Source: Chloroflexota bacterium
GTDB taxonomy: Bacteria; Chloroflexota; Anaerolineae; Anaerolineales; Villigracilaceae
Assembly: GCA_020217065.1 (NCBI GenBank)
Contig: JAIWOB010000061.1
Span: 1 to 10,000, forward strand
DNA: 10,000 nt
Reading direction: 5' to 3'
Position numbers and translations under genes: made by a program. Position 1 is the first letter of the stretch. Each line of letters begins with the position of its first letter. Below the pieces are notes generated by a model. The model searched no databases. It was not told the DNA's origin and worked only from the letters and a program-made list of their open reading frames with translations. Below, one piece after another: positions 3,931-9,586 of the stretch.

Positions 3931-4827
3931 TCACGCCAGAAACAACACCGCCACGCCGAGGATTGCCAGTACGGTCCCCGCCACGCCCTGCCAGCCGACT
4001 TTTTCTTTGAAAACGAAATAACTGATGGGCAGGACGATTACAGGGGGGAGCGCCATTAACGTGCTGGCGACGCCGATTTCGGCGTGTTGCACCGCCAGCA
4101 GGGACGCGGACACGCCAAGTAAAGGTCCAACGACGGCGCCAATTGCAATCAATTGCAGGGCTTTGGGCTGCCCGCGAATCGCTTGTAGGGTCGCTCCTGC
4201 CTGACCTTCCGCCGCCGCCCAAAGCCAGATGAAAACCGCCGCAGCGGACATGCGGATGGCGTTTGCCTGAAATGGGGAGAAGTTTCCCGTCATCCCCTGC
4301 TTTGATAGGACAAGCCCGACAGCCTGTCCCAACCCAGCCATGACGCCGAAAAAGACGCCGCGCCGCGTATGTCCGTGAGGCGTGTCGGCAGGCTCTTCGT
4401 GCGAAGTCACCACCCAGCCAATGCCAGCCAAGGCGAGAACAATGCCCGCGATTTGCGGCAGGGATAACGTCTCCCCGAAAAATATCCAGGCAATCATTGA
4501 GCCGAAGATGGGAGCGAGAGCCAGCAGCAGGCTGCCCAGCCGCGCTCCCACGGAAACGTAGGATTGAAATAAAAACGCGTCGCCCAGCGCCAGTCCGATG
4601 ACGCCCGAAAGCCCCAGCCAAAACCAACGCGAGGAGTCTGCGGAAAAGGGAAGCGGCTCGCCGAAAAGAACGAGGTTCAAGATGATGAGATAAACCAGCG
4701 CAAGAACAAGGCGGACGCGATTCGTAACCTGCGAGCCAATCATTTGACTCGCCTTCGAAAAAATAATCGCCGTAATCGCAAAGAAGAACGATGTCGCCAA
4801 GCCAGCGATTTCGCCGACGAGATTCAT
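3931..4827 (-). CDS. EamA-family (DMT superfamily) transporter, last gene of operon
   Basis: A 298-residue inner-membrane protein with two EamA repeats and about ten hydrophobic helices, the normal size for the drug/metabolite transporter superfamily. Repeat ends are recognisable as LLALAPIFGSMIAWIFFGE (about 100-118) and LMALPPVIVLPISYFVFKEK near residues 257-276, each with the acidic residue that closes these helices. Members export amino acids, nucleobases, sugars or other metabolites; the substrate cannot be read. The central linker (about 142-155) is polar and His-rich (SHEEPADTPHGHTRR). The ATG overlaps the stop of the preceding transporter gene by four bases, with AGGA about nine bases upstream, so translation is probably coupled. 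No clear terminator follows within the 100 bases after its stop. Confidence 0.9.
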   Translation of the reverse strand: MNLVGEIAGLATSFFFAITAIIFSKASQMIGSQVTNRVRLVLALVYLIILNLVLFGEPLPFSADSSRWFWLGLSGVIGLALGDAFLFQSYVSVGARLGSLLLALAPIFGSMIAWIFFGETLSLPQIAGIVLALAGIGWVVTSHEEPADTPHGHTRRGVFFGVMAGLGQAVGLVLSKQGMTGNFSPFQANAIRMSAAAVFIWLWAAAEGQAGATLQAIRGQPKALQLIAIGAVVGPLLGVSASLLAVQHAEIGVASTLMALPPVIVLPISYFVFKEKVGWQGVAGTVLAILGVAVLFLA

Positions 4828-5717
4828 GATTCTGTTTTCCTATTCGCGATTTCCTTTTCGCCGCTTGCCAATTCCGACCTTGTCAGTATGATGACCGCCG
4901 CCAGAATCAGCCCGCCGCCGAGCAGGGTAATGAAAGTCAGCCTTTCTCCGAAAAGCCATGCGGCGAGCAGCACCGTCACCACAGGCTCCAGAGTGGATAG
5001 CATTGCCGCGTTGGTCGGACCGATAATTTTTATTCCAGCAAGAAAGGCGGTAATGGCGATGATGGTTGAGAAAACAACCATCCCCAGCATGGCGAGCCAT
5101 CCGGTAGCGCTCTGCGGAAGATGGACGCCGTTGGCGAAGGTCAGAATCCCATAGACCGCGCCTGCCGACATGAAAACCACCGCCGAAGATTGAAACGCCG
5201 TGACGTGTTTCATCACATTTGCGCCGACGACGATGTAGACTGAATATACGAGCGCGGCGGCGATAATCATCGCCGCGCCGAGGAGTTGTCCGCCATCGGG
5301 GTCAACGGTCAGCCCTGCGCCGACAATCGAGAGAGCCAGCGCCGTAACTTTTACTGCGGTTACTTTCTCTCGCAGAAAGATGACCGAAAGGATGAAGACA
5401 AACATCGGGTAGAGATACAAGAGCAGGGCAATCAACCCGACGGAGGCGTATTTGATGGAGGTTAGATACAGGAAGGATTGACCGACGTATCCAATCGCGC
5501 CCATGCCAATCAGTTGGGCGAGAATCCGTCCGCGCGGAAAACGCTCCTTGCGGAGAATCAGGACGGTCATCATGAAAGCGGCAGAAACGCCGAAGCGGAT
5601 GAAGAGGGCGGTGAAGATGTCCATCCCGTCGCCGTAGACGTATCGCCCAAAGATGCCAAGGGTCCCGAAAGAAGCGGCGGAGATGGCGACAAGCAGGATG
5701 CCGATGAGTTTTTTCAT
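4824..5717 (-). CDS. EamA-family (DMT superfamily) transporter
   Basis: A 297-residue ten-helix EamA transporter of the inner membrane, in two tandem five-helix repeats. Diagnostic repeat ends are LLLYLYPMFVFILSVIFLRE (about 97-116) and STLEPVVTVLLAAWLFGE near residues 241-258. It has the GTLGIFGRY start region typical of DMT exporters. It begins inside the stop codon of the glycosyltransferase gene (4-base overlap) without its own Shine-Dalgarno sequence, which argues for translational coupling and a linked role, perhaps export of the product. It is clearly diverged from the neighbouring EamA protein and not a recent duplicate. Its charged C-terminal tail (SGEKEIANRKTES) is encoded by a heptad repeat tract. 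Confidence 0.92.
   Translation of the reverse strand: MKKLIGILLVAISAASFGTLGIFGRYVYGDGMDIFTALFIRFGVSAAFMMTVLILRKERFPRGRILAQLIGMGAIGYVGQSFLYLTSIKYASVGLIALLLYLYPMFVFILSVIFLREKVTAVKVTALALSIVGAGLTVDPDGGQLLGAAMIIAAALVYSVYIVVGANVMKHVTAFQSSAVVFMSAGAVYGILTFANGVHLPQSATGWLAMLGMVVFSTIIAITAFLAGIKIIGPTNAAMLSTLEPVVTVLLAAWLFGERLTFITLLGGGLILAAVIILTRSELASGEKEIANRKTES
4828..4862. repeat. Heptad repeat tract in the tail of the first EamA gene
   Basis: On the plus strand, successive 7-base units are GATTCTG, TTTTCCT, ATTCGCG, ATTTCCT and TTTCGCC; on the minus strand these give GGCGAAA, AGGAAAT, CGCGAAT, AGGAAAA. The tract encodes the hydrophilic C-terminus after the last membrane helix. The repeat is degenerate, so chance is possible for this single tract. 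Confidence 0.4.
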
Positions 5718-6769
5718 TGTTGTTGAGTCAGAGATTGCAGGAATGTTCGGATTTGACTTGCGGTCTCATTCCACGCCGGTTGTTGAGTATACCGCCTGCG
5801 GGCGTTGAGCGAAAGTTCGGTCAGCAGGCTGCGGTTTGACGCGAGCTCCGAGATATGAGCGGCAAGGGCGGCGGAATCGTTGGGTTGAATCAGATAACCG
5901 GTTTTCCCGTGTTCGATGATTTCCCCCGCCGCGCCTGCGGTTGCGCCGACGGCGGGCAGCCCGAAACACATCCCTTCGAGATAGACGATGCCGAAGCCTT
6001 CATAACTGGACGGCACAATGAGAATGTGCGCCTGCCTGAGTTTTTTGACGAGGGCTTCATTGTCCAATGCGCCGTGGAAACGGACTGCGGACTGTAGACC
6101 GTTGACCGTGACGAAGTCTCGCATTTTTTTGGAATAGGCGGGGTCGGCGGTTAATGAGCCTATGATGTCAAGTTGAAGGTTGGAAGTTGAAAGTTTCAAC
6201 GCTTCCAGCAGGGTATGAAGCCCTTTGCGTTCGATGACGTTGCCGAGGAACAGAATCCTCAACTCGCCGCTCTTCGCCCGTTCACGAATTTCCTCCTTCG
6301 AAACGGCTTCGCCGAATCTATCGGTGGGCGGGTATGCAATGACCCCTGGTTTGCTATTCCCGATTAAACTCTTCACCGCTCCCTGCGTCGTTTGCGAATT
6401 GAAAATAAACCCGTCCACGCTTTGCAGGTACTTTTTTTCAACGATGCGGTAGAAGGCGTTTTGCCATGGAGGGCGTAACTCCGAACAGCGCAAATGATGC
6501 GCAAGGCTGACGATTGGATACGGATGCGGTCTGCGATTTGCGCCAATCAGCGAGGGATGGTTGAGTTCGTCTTGAATCAGAATATCGAGCCTGGGCGGTA
6601 GTTTGAACGTTAGGTTATCCGTTAGATGCGCGGCGTAATTCCGCCAGGGCAGGGAGATGATTTCAACCGTGTCGCCCTGCGCGCGGAGGTATTCCGTCAG
6701 TTTGCGGTCATAGAGGTAGCCGCCGCTGAGGGTGTCTAGCGAGCCGTAAATGACAAAACCGATTTTCAT
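5714..6769 (-). CDS. Family 4 glycosyltransferase (GT-B fold)
   Basis: A 351-residue cytoplasmic GT-B glycosyltransferase that would transfer a sugar from a nucleotide-sugar donor. The N-terminal domain starts MKIGFVIYGSLDTLSGGYLYDR with the Gly-rich acceptor loop. The C-terminal donor domain shows LFLGNVIERKGLHTLLEAL (173-191, the R/K pair contacting donor phosphates) and the EX7E motif E257-GFGIVYL-E265, followed by GLPAVGATAGAAGEII (270-285) and GKTGYLI. Donor and acceptor cannot be assigned. It starts 52 bases after the PTPS-like gene across a repeat, with only a weak ribosome site, and overlaps the next gene by four bases. Residues 191-200 (LKLSTSNLQL) are encoded by a heptad repeat tract lying in the loop before a beta strand. 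Confidence 0.92.
   Translation of the reverse strand: MKIGFVIYGSLDTLSGGYLYDRKLTEYLRAQGDTVEIISLPWRNYAAHLTDNLTFKLPPRLDILIQDELNHPSLIGANRRPHPYPIVSLAHHLRCSELRPPWQNAFYRIVEKKYLQSVDGFIFNSQTTQGAVKSLIGNSKPGVIAYPPTDRFGEAVSKEEIRERAKSGELRILFLGNVIERKGLHTLLEALKLSTSNLQLDIIGSLTADPAYSKKMRDFVTVNGLQSAVRFHGALDNEALVKKLRQAHILIVPSSYEGFGIVYLEGMCFGLPAVGATAGAAGEIIEHGKTGYLIQPNDSAALAAHISELASNRSLLTELSLNARRRYTQQPAWNETASQIRTFLQSLTQQQ
6171..6198. repeat. Heptad repeat tract inside the glycosyltransferase gene
   Basis: Four in-phase 7-base units on the plus strand: AGTTGAA, GGTTGGA, AGTTGAA, AGTTTCA. They are translated on the minus strand as part of the loop LKLSTSNLQL. Confidence 0.55.
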
Positions 6770-6777
6770 AGGTTAGA

Positions 6778-6826
6778 GTCAAAAGCCAGGGGTTGAAGGC
6801 TGAGGGTCGGGCTTTTGACCTTTAAC
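6778..6826. repeat. Heptad repeat element between the PTPS-like and glycosyltransferase genes
   Basis: Perfect 10-base inverted arms GTCAAAAGCC (6778-6787) and GGCTTTTGAC (6810-6819) flank the heptads GGTTGAA and GGCTGAG, followed by GGTCGG. The right end reads GCTTTTGACCTTT and supplies the TAA stop of the PTPS-like gene. The same plan, GGTCGAA-type heptads followed by CTTTTGACC(TTT), recurs inside the dehydrogenase gene at 7580-7656, so the two look like copies of one element. As RNA the arms could form a hairpin that separates the two genes. Confidence 0.65.
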
Positions 6827-7199
6827 GTTCGATTGAGTACGCCGCCCAGGCGTTTGCGTTTTCCCACAAAATCACCTTGAGCGCGGAGATATTCTTCGCC
6901 TTGATTCTGTCGTTCAACGTCGCGGCAAGGATGCGTGAAAAATGTTCGATGGACGGGTTTAGCCCTGCGAATTCGGGTTTGTCGTTCAGCGTTTGCTCTT
7001 TGTAATAATTGACCGTATCGTCGAGATGTTTTTCCACATCCACAATGTCTACAAGATAGCCGTGTTGGTCGAGCTCCGCTCCTTCCATCTGCAATTCGAG
7101 GATATAGTGGTGTGAGTTGGGGAAATTTTCCGCTCCCCAATCGCCGCCGATTAAAAAATGGCGCGCGATGAATTCTCGTCGAACAGCCAATGTGTACAT
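6822..7199 (-). CDS. Divergent 6-pyruvoyltetrahydropterin synthase/QueD-like protein
   Basis: A 125-residue protein of the PTPS/QueD family (T-fold), the usual length. True members convert dihydroneopterin triphosphate to 6-pyruvoyl- or 6-carboxy-tetrahydropterin using a zinc site of three His and a Cys plus His-Asp pair. Here H14 (FIARH) fits the first zinc ligand and E113 (LWENANAWAAY) fits the Glu that anchors the pterin ring. However, the CxxxHGH motif reads E24-x3-N-S-H30-H31, so the Cys is Glu and one zinc His is Asn. The LDHxxLND region reads YKEQTLND, so the catalytic His is also gone. Activity is therefore uncertain. GGAGAG lies five bases upstream of the ATG, and the gene follows the dehydrogenase stop by 22 bases. 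A TATAAT in that gap (7212-7217) has no -35 partner. Confidence 0.8.
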   Translation of the reverse strand: MYTLAVRREFIARHFLIGGDWGAENFPNSHHYILELQMEGAELDQHGYLVDIVDVEKHLDDTVNYYKEQTLNDKPEFAGLNPSIEHFSRILAATLNDRIKAKNISALKVILWENANAWAAYSIER

Positions 7200-7221
7200 G
7201 AGCGCTCTCCAATTATAGGGG

Positions 7222-8223
7222 TTAGATTGAGTAATCGAATATCACTTGAATTGTATCCTGCGGGTTTTCATCCAACAGGCGATAAGCCTTGTCCGCTTCT
7301 TCAATAGGGAAGCGGTGCGTAATCCATTTCGCCGGTTTGATTCTTTCCAGCGCTTTCCATGCCACGTCGAAGCGCCGCGACTTGTCCCACCTGCCCGAAA
7401 GTTCAGGCGAAATGGCGCTGACTTGGGAGGCGATAAGTTTAATCCGCGAGCGGTGGAATTTGCCGCCCAGGTTGATTTCCGCCCGCTTTTCGCCATACCA
7501 CGAGCCGATGACGATTCGTCCGCTGAAGGCGGTCTGTTCAATCGCGTCGTTCAAGGCGGACGGGGAGCCTGTCAATTCAAAAGTCAGGTCGAAAGGGTCG
7601 AAGGCGGAAGGTCGAAGGTCGTATTGTGGGATACTTTTGACCTTTGGCTTTTGACCGTCAATCTCCAGCGCTTTTCTCCGCAGTTCAAACCCATCTACCG
7701 CCACTAAACTCTCCAGCGGAAATTCGTTCAGCAGGGAGGCGGTCAACAGCCCTACCACGCCCTGACCCAGCACCAACACCCGCTCCCCAAGCAGCGGCGC
7801 GCCGTCTTGAACCAGATTCACCGCCGTTTCCATATTCGGCAGGAAGCAGGCGGACTCAGGGGAAATGAATTCGGGAATATGGAGCAAGGAGGAAGGCTGA
7901 ATGATGAAGGATGAAGCGTGAGAATGAAACGCAAAAACCAATTTTCCCCGCAATGACCTGTCTACCCTGCCGCCTATCTCCTTCACCCTGCCAACGCAGG
8001 CATACCCATATTCCAGCGGATATTTCAAATTGCCGCTCACCGCGTCGCGGGCGTCTTTCAATGGCGGGAATTGTCCGCGATAGACCAGCATTTCCGTCCC
8101 CGCGCTGACTGCGGAAAAAACGGTTTCCACCAGCGCTTCATCCTCTTTAAGGCGGGGAAGAGGAGTCTCTCGAATTTCCACCCTGCGCGGCGAAATGAAA
8201 AACAAAGTCTTGGCTTTTTCCAT
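7222..8223 (-). CDS. Zinc-free MDR-family oxidoreductase (BchC-like), first gene of operon
   Basis: A 333-residue medium-chain dehydrogenase/reductase. The nucleotide-binding domain is clear: VLVLGQGVVGLLTASLL with GxGxxG at G153-G158, and an acidic residue ending the second strand (VAVDGFE, D177), which favours NAD(H). The catalytic zinc site of alcohol dehydrogenases is absent: the Cys position reads S40 in VSAGTE, the GHE position reads YGY (72-74), and the four-Cys structural zinc lobe is missing. The S-G-T-E-like motif followed by a GYxxVG segment recalls BchC and related enzymes, by memory of the family. A reducing or oxidising role on a small molecule made with its operon partners is plausible. 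The ATG at 8223 lacks a clear Shine-Dalgarno sequence. Residues about 100-113 and 188-215 are encoded by heptad repeats. Confidence 0.88.
   Translation of the reverse strand: MEKAKTLFFISPRRVEIRETPLPRLKEDEALVETVFSAVSAGTEMLVYRGQFPPLKDARDAVSGNLKYPLEYGYACVGRVKEIGGRVDRSLRGKLVFAFHSHASSFIIQPSSLLHIPEFISPESACFLPNMETAVNLVQDGAPLLGERVLVLGQGVVGLLTASLLNEFPLESLVAVDGFELRRKALEIDGQKPKVKSIPQYDLRPSAFDPFDLTFELTGSPSALNDAIEQTAFSGRIVIGSWYGEKRAEINLGGKFHRSRIKLIASQVSAISPELSGRWDKSRRFDVAWKALERIKPAKWITHRFPIEEADKAYRLLDENPQDTIQVIFDYSI
7580..7656. repeat. Heptad repeat element inside the dehydrogenase gene (second copy)
   Basis: Units AAAGTCA and GGTCGAA (7580-7593) are followed by an in-phase run from 7596: GGTCGAA, GGCGGAA, GGTCGAA, GGTCGTA. 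After an 11-base gap, CTTTTGACC occurs at 7634-7642 and again at 7648-7656, exactly 14 bases apart. The element is in frame and encodes about residues 188-215, including KPKVKSIPQYDLRPSAFDPF, between the nucleotide-binding strand and the FELTGS strand. It shares its plan with the element at 6778-6826. Confidence 0.65.
7886..7927. repeat. Heptad repeat tract (GATGAAG type) inside the dehydrogenase gene
   Basis: Six in-phase 7-base units on the plus strand: AAGGAGG, AAGGCTG, AATGATG, AAGGATG, AAGCGTG, AGAATGA. They are 42 bases, hence 14 codons, and encode HSHASSFIIQPSSLLH on the minus strand (about residues 100-115) without breaking the frame. Confidence 0.55.
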
Positions 8224-8239: not shown

Positions 8240-8266
8240 AAAAAAAACAGCCCTTTTGGCGGGCTG
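8240..8266 (-). terminator. Rho-independent terminator of the PilZ gene
   Basis: On the minus strand CAGCCC and GGGCTG pair perfectly around a 7-base loop (GCCAAAA) and are followed by eight T residues. It lies 18 bases past the PilZ stop and separates that gene from the operon starting at 8223. Confidence 0.9.
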
Positions 8267-8284: not shown

Positions 8285-8644
8285 CTACGGCGCTGCGTCC
8301 CGCCGCAATTCGTAATTCTTCATCACGGCTTCTATGATGGCGGCTTGCTCGGCGGTCACTTTTTTGAAGACAAAACCGATGTTGAAGAATTCGGGGCTGA
8401 TATCCTGCTGACACCACACCGCGCGCGCCGGAATGGCGATGCGCGAAGCGTTTATGTTTGGCAGTTTGGGCAATTCGATGGCAAGGGTGACTTCGACGTT
8501 TTCCGCCAGCGGTTTCAACCCAATGACCATTGCCCCTTCCAAATGCAAATCTCCCAAATGACCAAGCAGAGACCCGCTGTATAAGTCGAAGACCTGGCTG
8601 TAAGCCATTAAGTTCTTGCGTTGGGCGTTCCTGCGTTCCTTCAT
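8285..8644 (-). CDS. Stand-alone PilZ-domain protein
   Basis: A 119-residue single PilZ domain. PilZ proteins are cytoplasmic receptors that bind cyclic di-GMP and pass the signal to motility, exopolysaccharide or secretion machinery. The RxxxR half of the binding site is R5-N-A-Q-R9. The second half, normally (D/N)xSxxG, reads D32-L-H-L-E-G37, so the Ser is His. Later sections IPARAVWCQ (71-79) and FNIGFVF (87-93) are the usual PilZ barrel strands. The start ATG at 8644 is well supported by AAGGAG five bases upstream. It is a single-gene unit with its own terminator. With one ligand residue changed, cyclic di-GMP binding is likely but not certain. Confidence 0.82.
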   Translation of the reverse strand: MKERRNAQRKNLMAYSQVFDLYSGSLLGHLGDLHLEGAMVIGLKPLAENVEVTLAIELPKLPNINASRIAIPARAVWCQQDISPEFFNIGFVFKKVTAEQAAIIEAVMKNYELRRDAAP

Positions 8645-8857: not shown

Positions 8858-9586
8858 ATGCGCTATATCTATGTTTCTCCGCATTTAGACGACGCGATTT
8901 TGTCGGCGGGCGGTTTGATTTATGAACAGACGTCTCGTGGAACGGAGGTGGAAATCTGGACTGTGACCGCCGGCTTACCCCCCGGCGGCGACCTTTCTCC
9001 TTTTGCCCAGGCGATTCATCGCTCCTGGGGCGTTCCTTCCGCCGCCGACGTTATCTCTGCGCGGCGCGCTGAAGATATAAAAGCCGCCGGCATTGTGGGC
9101 GCGAAAGCCGTACACTTTGACTTCCTCGACTGTATTTACCGCCGAGACAAGGATGGAAATTGGCTTTACGACTCGGGCATTTTCGTTCCCCCGCATAAAG
9201 AAGACGTTGACTTTCCCGCCCGTCTCGCAGAAACCCTCTCCACCCTCCTGCTGCCGACAGACCGCTTGGTTTGTCTTTTCGGAATTGGCTCTCATGTGGA
9301 CCATGTCCTCACGCGCCGCGCCGTCGAAACGCTTTGCCGCCCGCTTTATTACCTTGCCGACGTTCCCTATGTCTTCAGACAACCCGCCGAACTGGGGCTG
9401 CACACGGCGGGAAGGAAGGCGGAAACCCGCCGTATCTCCGATGTAGGCTTTTGGACATGGCTGGAAGCGGCTGCGGCTTATCAATCTCAACTGAGCAGTC
9501 TGTTCGAGAGCCGACGGGAAATGGAATCTTTATTCCAACAATATTGGTCTGAATATCTTGGAATCCGCGTTTGGCTTTCTGCCTAG
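8858..9586 (+). CDS. PIG-L family deacetylase
   Basis: A 242-residue LmbE/PIG-L family zinc-dependent hydrolase. Characterised relatives remove N-acetyl groups from GlcNAc-type conjugates, in mycothiol, bacillithiol or glycolipid synthesis and in antibiotic pathways; the substrate here is unknown. The N-terminal metal motif is SPHLDDAIL (H9, D11, D12) and the distal metal His lies in GSHVDHV (H146, D148, H149). Residues 29-40 (TEVEIWTVTAGL) are the usual second strand. No signal peptide is present, so it is cytoplasmic. The ATG at 8858 gives a natural start directly before the first strand (MRYIYVSPHLDD) and lacks a ribosome-binding site. It is the first rightward gene and is followed by greA, which has its own promoter. 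Confidence 0.9.
   Translation: MRYIYVSPHLDDAILSAGGLIYEQTSRGTEVEIWTVTAGLPPGGDLSPFAQAIHRSWGVPSAADVISARRAEDIKAAGIVGAKAVHFDFLDCIYRRDKDGNWLYDSGIFVPPHKEDVDFPARLAETLSTLLLPTDRLVCLFGIGSHVDHVLTRRAVETLCRPLYYLADVPYVFRQPAELGLHTAGRKAETRRISDVGFWTWLEAAAAYQSQLSSLFESRREMESLFQQYWSEYLGIRVWLSA

Follow-up and report, generated by a model that had tools for sequence, protein, structure and literature searches.

An MDR, PTPS-like and GT4 gene cluster of Anaerolineales that probably builds a sugar-bearing molecule from GTP

What might a cell make with a dehydrogenase, a protein of the pterin synthase fold, a glycosyltransferase and two transporters encoded side by side? The question is raised by a group of genes in a Chloroflexota genome of the Villigracilaceae (assembly GCA_020217065.1), of which we analysed positions 1 to 10,000 of contig JAIWOB010000061.1, here called the window. 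Five genes, all on the minus strand, encode an oxidoreductase of the medium-chain dehydrogenase/reductase family (MDR; 7222..8223), a protein related to 6-pyruvoyltetrahydropterin synthase (PTPS; 6822..7199), a family 4 glycosyltransferase (GT4; 5714..6769) and two EamA transporters (4824..5717 and 3931..4827). The first three are spaced by 22 and 52 bases and the last three overlap by 4 bases, twice. Coordinates and Pfam domains agree with this layout, as described in a first-pass annotation of the window. The proteins encoded in the window find their best matches among Anaerolineales records. It is confirmed that the grouping is far from chance, and that the gene order is kept in many genomes. 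We think it likely that this operon represents the Anaerolineales version of a biosynthetic cluster combining an MDR, a T-fold protein of PTPS-IV type, a GT4 and, in relatives, an S-adenosylmethionine-dependent methyltransferase (MT), with a riboflavin-type entry from GTP. The cluster would probably build a sugar-bearing molecule from GTP, and the best reading of its putative product is a 2-amino-4-oxo pyrimidine or pteridine that bears a sugar and, often, a methyl group.

Conservation carries the first part of this proposal. The PTPS-like protein has matches in 116 of 400 Chloroflexota genomes. Their scores fall into two separate groups: about 131 bits or higher in 29 close genomes, to which the window's own is to be added, and 55 bits or lower in the others. 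The neighbourhoods of all 29, most of them from the window's family, were fetched. A second scan, over contigs of many taxa, found relatives encoded at no fewer than 526 places, of which the best 80 were kept; to judge from the record titles, these 80 include Anaerolineae, Caldilineae, Ardenticatenia, several Deltaproteobacteria and Cohnella silvisoli. Phylum genomes, genome-scan contigs and plasmid records together gave 116 loci, in which neighbours were counted up to eight genes on either side, loci cut by contig ends and duplicates between sets being kept (one locus on the same contig as another was dropped before the counts, and two more gave no PTPS). Genes were called as simple longest open reading frames, seeded with those matching known proteins. 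A GT4 homologue stands near the PTPS relative in 103 of the 116 loci (102 genes at position +1), an MDR homologue in 88 and an MT in 67 (63 at +2), while GTP cyclohydrolase II (RibA), the reductase domain RibD_C or both are found in 57. Once contig ends are allowed for, the Chloroflexota genome set has MDR upstream in 25/29, GT4 downstream in 22/28, MT in 9/28 and RibA or RibD_C within 5 kb in 7/28; the figures for the genome-scan contigs (best 80 of at least 526) are 51/66, 59/68, 45/62 and, for RibA/RibD_C, 38/53. As a control, 20 lower-scoring PTPS loci of the same search were fetched and typed by eye from the alignment. None of the 13 QueD-type loci has MDR, GT4 or RibD_C nearby; the seven FGPA-type loci have MDR in six, GT4 in seven and RibD_C in six. 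Distances within the PTPS, MDR and GT4 families also correlate (0.56–0.71, n = 63, against a permutation maximum of 0.23), a result to be given little weight, as it also reflects shared genome ancestry. MDR, PTPS-like protein and GT4 form a conserved core, a single unit. The first-pass annotation had made its reading depend on such a neighbourhood being conserved in related genomes, and had asked whether a GTP cyclohydrolase or a methyltransferase would join it: in the relatives, both do. In the window's family, unrelated genes separate MDR from PTPS at some loci, namely a member of the 2-phosphosulfolactate phosphatase family PF04029 (eight loci) and a gene that by eye resembles cation/proton antiporters (six loci).

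Other neighbours in the 116 loci are a flippase-like membrane protein (25), a small membrane protein (24), a CDP-alcohol phosphatidyltransferase (21) and a PlsC-like acyltransferase (17), the flippase-like and PlsC-like names being assigned by eye from sequence. Such company might mean that the cluster makes a glycolipid or a surface glycoconjugate, the T-fold protein binding a nucleotide sugar or being structural. However, the position and strand of the lipid-type genes vary more than those of MDR, GT4 and MT, and GTP cyclohydrolase and RibD_C would be left without explanation. We hold this use of the cluster to be decidedly unlikely.

The core is also found well beyond the Chloroflexota. In annotated plasmid records, MDR, PTPS, GT4 and MT come with a creatininase and ribA in Streptomyces fungicidicus, with RibD in Microbacterium and Thiodictyon, and with both ribA and RibD in Agrobacterium; the Methylosinus plasmid has MDR, PTPS, GT4 and RibD, with a hypothetical protein in the place of MT. 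In Cohnella, RibD_C, MDR, PTPS and RibA stand in a row. Among the 116 loci some have a RibA–RibD_C fusion, which in one example adjoins MDR. Some haloarchaeal records hold the whole cluster, others lack an adjacent GT4. In two haloarchaeal records, from Haloarcula pelagica (PF05165 confirmed) and Natrarchaeobaculum, the MDR gene is overlapped by the gene of a GTP cyclohydrolase from a separate enzyme family, which we take to be type IIa/III. Relatives of creatininase deformylate the product of that enzyme, and a creatininase-family gene lies near the cluster on plasmid pNG700 of Haloarcula marismortui. Because different cyclohydrolase families adjoin the same MDR, these arrangements are the strongest hint that the opening of GTP is part of the pathway. 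On pNG700, a tblastn match to residues 22–122 of the PTPS-like protein falls between MDR and GT4, where no gene is listed. In the Thiodictyon and Agrobacterium clusters, a cytochrome b gene adjoins the RibD gene.

Are these riboflavin-type enzymes simply making riboflavin? In the window's family, lumazine synthase is missing from 23 of the 24 complete genomes searched, while GTP cyclohydrolase II is present in 22 of 25 family genomes, and so is a strong match to RibD_C (above 130 bits). The two often form a pair, with about 0.8 kb between them, at a distance from the operon. We looked at the same relationship across 399 Chloroflexota genomes, the window's own being excluded, 160 of which lack lumazine synthase. 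With two confirmed FGPA-type genomes left out, GTP cyclohydrolase II is kept in 23 of 24 lumazine-synthase-negative genomes that have a window-type PTPS, versus 17 of 134 others (Fisher p = 7e-16, kinship being ignored). In eight of these 17 there is a PTPS whose type is unclassified, among them G233, with a partial window-type match; where there is no PTPS match at all, the enzyme is found in 9 of 121. Within families, among the genomes listed, the single carrier of family f2 has RibA (1/1) versus none of eight non-carriers; in f5 it is one carrier against two non-carriers, and in f9 one against one. As RibA is kept together with PTPS where lumazine synthase is absent, the riboflavin entry enzymes appear to feed a product other than riboflavin in these genomes. 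At four loci the RibD_C and RibA pair adjoins two large lipoprotein-like genes. The same pair beside two lipoprotein-like genes is seen in G046, a genome without PTPS-like gene and lumazine synthase.

What, then, is the T-fold protein? It matches PF01242 (81 bits), and its predicted model is confident (mean pLDDT 95). Its closest structure in the Protein Data Bank, also its best match in sequence, is SCO6650 (3d7j; TM score 0.91). Residues E113, S83, E85, H14 and H30 are fully or almost fully conserved, E113 being presumably the pterin-anchoring position of the family. Aligned with QueD, the protein has glutamate instead of the catalytic cysteine. The first histidine of HxH is asparagine in 19 of 30 Chloroflexota rows, including the window's (it is histidine in the other 11 and in three haloarchaea). 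In this genus the protein lacks one zinc-site histidine. It is not a standard PTPS, since the catalytic cysteine is gone and the HxH histidine changed. Signature motifs are listed in the available text of PMC5041015, and those of the canonical classes are absent from the window protein: in place of the CxxxHGH of PTPS-I (QueD) it has ENFPNSH, the CxxxxxHGH of PTPS-II, the biopterin class, is missing, and for the ExxHGH of PTPS-III the glutamate is one position further away (ExxxNSH here, ExxxHSH in other relatives). The protein might still be a normal PTPS of the QueD (PTPS-I) or folate (PTPS-III) type lying beside unrelated genes, as its Pfam match and its public annotation as 6-carboxytetrahydropterin synthase would have it. 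Against this, its score with the QueD model of NCBIfam (TIGR03367) is 35.3 bits for a cut-off of 89.25, its neighbours are different, and a tree of 46 PTPS rows (33 cluster-type, 13 QueD-type) separates the two types with support 100/97. Such a role is highly improbable, and that of QueD is rejected for this lineage on the model score, the split of clades and the lack of core neighbours at the QueD-type control loci. Within the cluster-type branch of the tree, window-type and FGPA-type proteins form two sub-branches, which places the protein with PTPS-IV, as its sister, and apart from QueD. The PTPS-IV signature FGPAQ itself reads WGAEN in the window, and WGPEN or WGAEN in most relatives. A role of PTPS-IV in F420 synthesis is given as unpublished in the same available text (PMC5041015). 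Yet CofH exceeds its cut-off in none of 32 genomes, G318 alone having strong matches (335 versus 374 bits). We find such a role extremely improbable and reject it for this lineage, a verdict that says nothing on haloarchaea or actinobacteria.

The MDR protein is less easily placed. It carries a GQGVVG nucleotide-binding motif, and its only Pfam matches, Glu_dehyd_C and ADH_zinc_N, are both under their cut-offs. The cysteine position of the zinc-dependent enzymes is a serine (VSAGTE) and their GHE is GYA; compared with this motif, which we assume to hold for the family, the usual ligands are missing, in line with the zinc-free character attributed to the protein by the first-pass annotation. 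Its best NCBIfam match, BchC (TIGR01202), reaches 81.4 bits, far under the curated cut-off of 291.25, and this speaks against membership. Its predicted model is weak (mean pLDDT 67.7). As the solved structures nearest to it are mostly polyol and secondary-alcohol dehydrogenases, oxidation of a ribityl chain by this MDR is a fair guess, despite the missing zinc ligands.

The GT4 protein, with PF00534 and the stretch EGFGIVYLE, which we take to be its E-x7-E motif, bears on the most familiar alternative. FolE would produce dihydroneopterin triphosphate, the PTPS-like protein would turn it into a pyruvoyl-pterin, MDR would reduce it and GT4 would glucosylate the result, as for biopterin glucoside or cyanopterin. 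Several observations are consistent with this scheme: FolE is found in 24 of 25 family genomes, so that a substrate derived from it is possible; the T-fold is kept, with the glutamate that we presume to anchor pterins; and GT4 matches the structure of a biopterin glucosyltransferase (5ze7) at 2e-12. However, this match covers residues 174–312 only, in the C-terminal half, and ranks under 6kih, the Tll1590 protein. The PTPS-II motif is absent, as noted above, and the cyclohydrolase seen beside the cluster is GTP cyclohydrolase II or IIa/III. FolE is not among the annotated neighbours in plasmids and haloarchaea, nor among the frequent families of the 116 loci, where no search was aimed at it. 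All in all, we consider that scheme unlikely. The first-pass annotation had suggested a glycosylated pterin-like molecule built on the biopterin glucoside and cyanopterin template. Of this, a glycosylated GTP-derived class of compounds is still the best reading; the template itself is not supported, the cyclohydrolase that joins being of type II (IIa/III in haloarchaea), together with RibD_C.

We can now return to a riboflavin-type entry and ask what the enzymes would do. GTP cyclohydrolase II would open GTP to 2,5-diamino-6-ribosylamino-4-pyrimidinone phosphate; in haloarchaea, GTP cyclohydrolase IIa/III would open it instead, perhaps with a creatininase-family deformylase. The RibD_C proteins of the cluster lack the deaminase domain (five of five scanned), and a reductase of this kind would give the ribityl form with the 2-amino group kept. 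Because that group is kept, a pterin-like rather than flavin-like ring is suggested. MDR would then oxidise the side chain at a secondary alcohol, the PTPS-like protein would bind the 2-amino-4-oxo ring via its conserved glutamate and rearrange or close it, GT4 would add a sugar and MT a methyl group. EamA carriers may export the product in the window's genus, where we infer supply by unlinked RibA and RibD_C genes, as we do each of these chemical steps. A more daring version, tentative and rather doubtful as a whole, makes of this a way to pterins that bypasses GTP cyclohydrolase I: opening by GTP cyclohydrolase II/III, C1′ reduction by RibD_C, C2′ oxidation by MDR and ring closure by the PTPS-IV T-fold, followed by glycosylation and methylation. 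The reduction and the oxidation would together, in our own proposal, amount to the Amadori rearrangement of GTP cyclohydrolase I, and the T-fold protein would join the 5-amino group to the C2′ ketone, giving a ring of the 7,8-dihydroneopterin type.

Besides the near-constant presence of FolE, a number of facts weigh against the proposed cluster and its riboflavin-type entry. MT, RibA and RibD_C are not in the operon at the eight fetched loci of the window's genus, within the range of genes printed. RibA, RibD_C and MT, like FolE, were not found in the window's own genome; at 1.6 Mb it is 66% complete, and this may explain why they are missing. Genomes G046, G072 and G397 keep RibA without a window-type PTPS; G184 has a PTPS with neither MDR nor GT4 nearby and no RibA anywhere, and at three further loci PTPS likewise stands without MDR or GT4. 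GT4 is not beside PTPS in Cohnella, in Halobellus, or in Haloarcula pelagica, where it lies about 4 kb away on the other strand. The Natrarchaeobaculum stretch with cyclohydrolase and MDR has no PTPS, and on one Streptomyces anthocyanicus plasmid a PTPS-IV protein is encoded without any partner gene.

The window's genus has its own way of arranging things. An EamA gene (PF00892) is near the core in all eight fetched loci, the window not being counted, and a second one in three; a gene for a C92 peptidase precedes EamA in two. The exporters are mainly a feature of this genus, a local addition rather than part of the pathway, and the export proposed by the first-pass annotation has to be limited in this way, the two EamA genes of the operon notwithstanding. 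MT, for its part, turns up in 12 of the 19 family genomes that have PTPS and in none of the six that do not. Five genomes of the genus have it at a second locus, beside or near a PlsC-like gene (5/5), an aldo/keto reductase (4/5), a ClpS-like gene (3/5) and a flippase-like gene (2/5), all named by eye. Because the same kinds of genes, again matched by eye, lie upstream of MDR in sister genera, we read this second locus as the outcome of an older operon having come apart. Upstream of MDR in the window, as the first-pass annotation had it, lies an intrinsic-terminator-like stem (CAGCCCGCC...GGGCTG followed by a run of 8 T; 8248..8266, minus strand), which separates it from a PilZ-like gene (8285–8644). 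The scan returned 12 terminator-like sites, versus 7.3 (sd 3.2) in shuffled sequences, and for that reason only this strongest site is given weight. Divergent to the PilZ-like gene lies a PIG-L-type deacetylase gene (8858–9586, plus strand), which has the same place beside the core in the eight genus loci. Pairs of GT4 and PIG-L bring to mind MshA/MshB and BshA/BshB.

Were a pterin made without GTP cyclohydrolase I, it would be a widespread natural product or cofactor crossing domains of life. The cluster, whole or partial, is present in Chloroflexota, Deltaproteobacteria, Cohnella, actinobacteria, proteobacteria and haloarchaea, its genes being annotated as alcohol dehydrogenases or as belonging to queuosine or riboflavin synthesis. 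The cluster would account for the retention of GTP cyclohydrolase II in some Chloroflexota that have no lumazine synthase. It would also turn the question of PTPS-IV function into that of a defined gene set, open to deletion in cultured carriers, for example Cohnella silvisoli, Methylosinus trichosporium OB3b or Haloarcula. In the open-access literature we found no description of the MDR–PTPS–GT4–MT set and no demonstrated function for PTPS-IV; searches there for SCO6650, and for formylaminopyrimidine and GTP cyclohydrolase II of Streptomyces coelicolor, gave no paper.

How does the cluster compare with what is known? With BchC it shares the best NCBIfam match of its MDR, yet that match is far under the cut-off and the gene context is different. 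GTP cyclohydrolase II and the RibD_C reductase recall riboflavin synthesis, which the absence of lumazine synthase from most of the family and of a deaminase from the scanned RibD_C proteins sets apart. The likeness to the biopterin glucosyltransferase and cyanopterin systems lies in a PTPS-fold protein joined to a GT4, whereas the canonical PTPS motif, the type of GTP cyclohydrolase joining in relatives and the extent of the GT4 match all differ. PTPS-IV comes closest. The window protein departs from it in two motifs, FGPAQ being replaced by WGAEN and HGA by ExxxNSH, and the available parts of the publications on PTPS-IV do not mention MDR, GT4 or MT as neighbours. The link of PTPS-IV, a COG0720 subfamily, to PF00925 and RibD_C (PF01872) is already published (PMC5445326, in the text available), PF00925 being called FolE2 there and GTP cyclohydrolase II by Pfam. 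Neither neighbour is present at the eight genus loci; both occur in the wider relatives of the window cluster, in agreement with that account, and SCO6650, which carries FGPAQ in the printed alignment, is the very protein whose solved structure is closest to that of the window.

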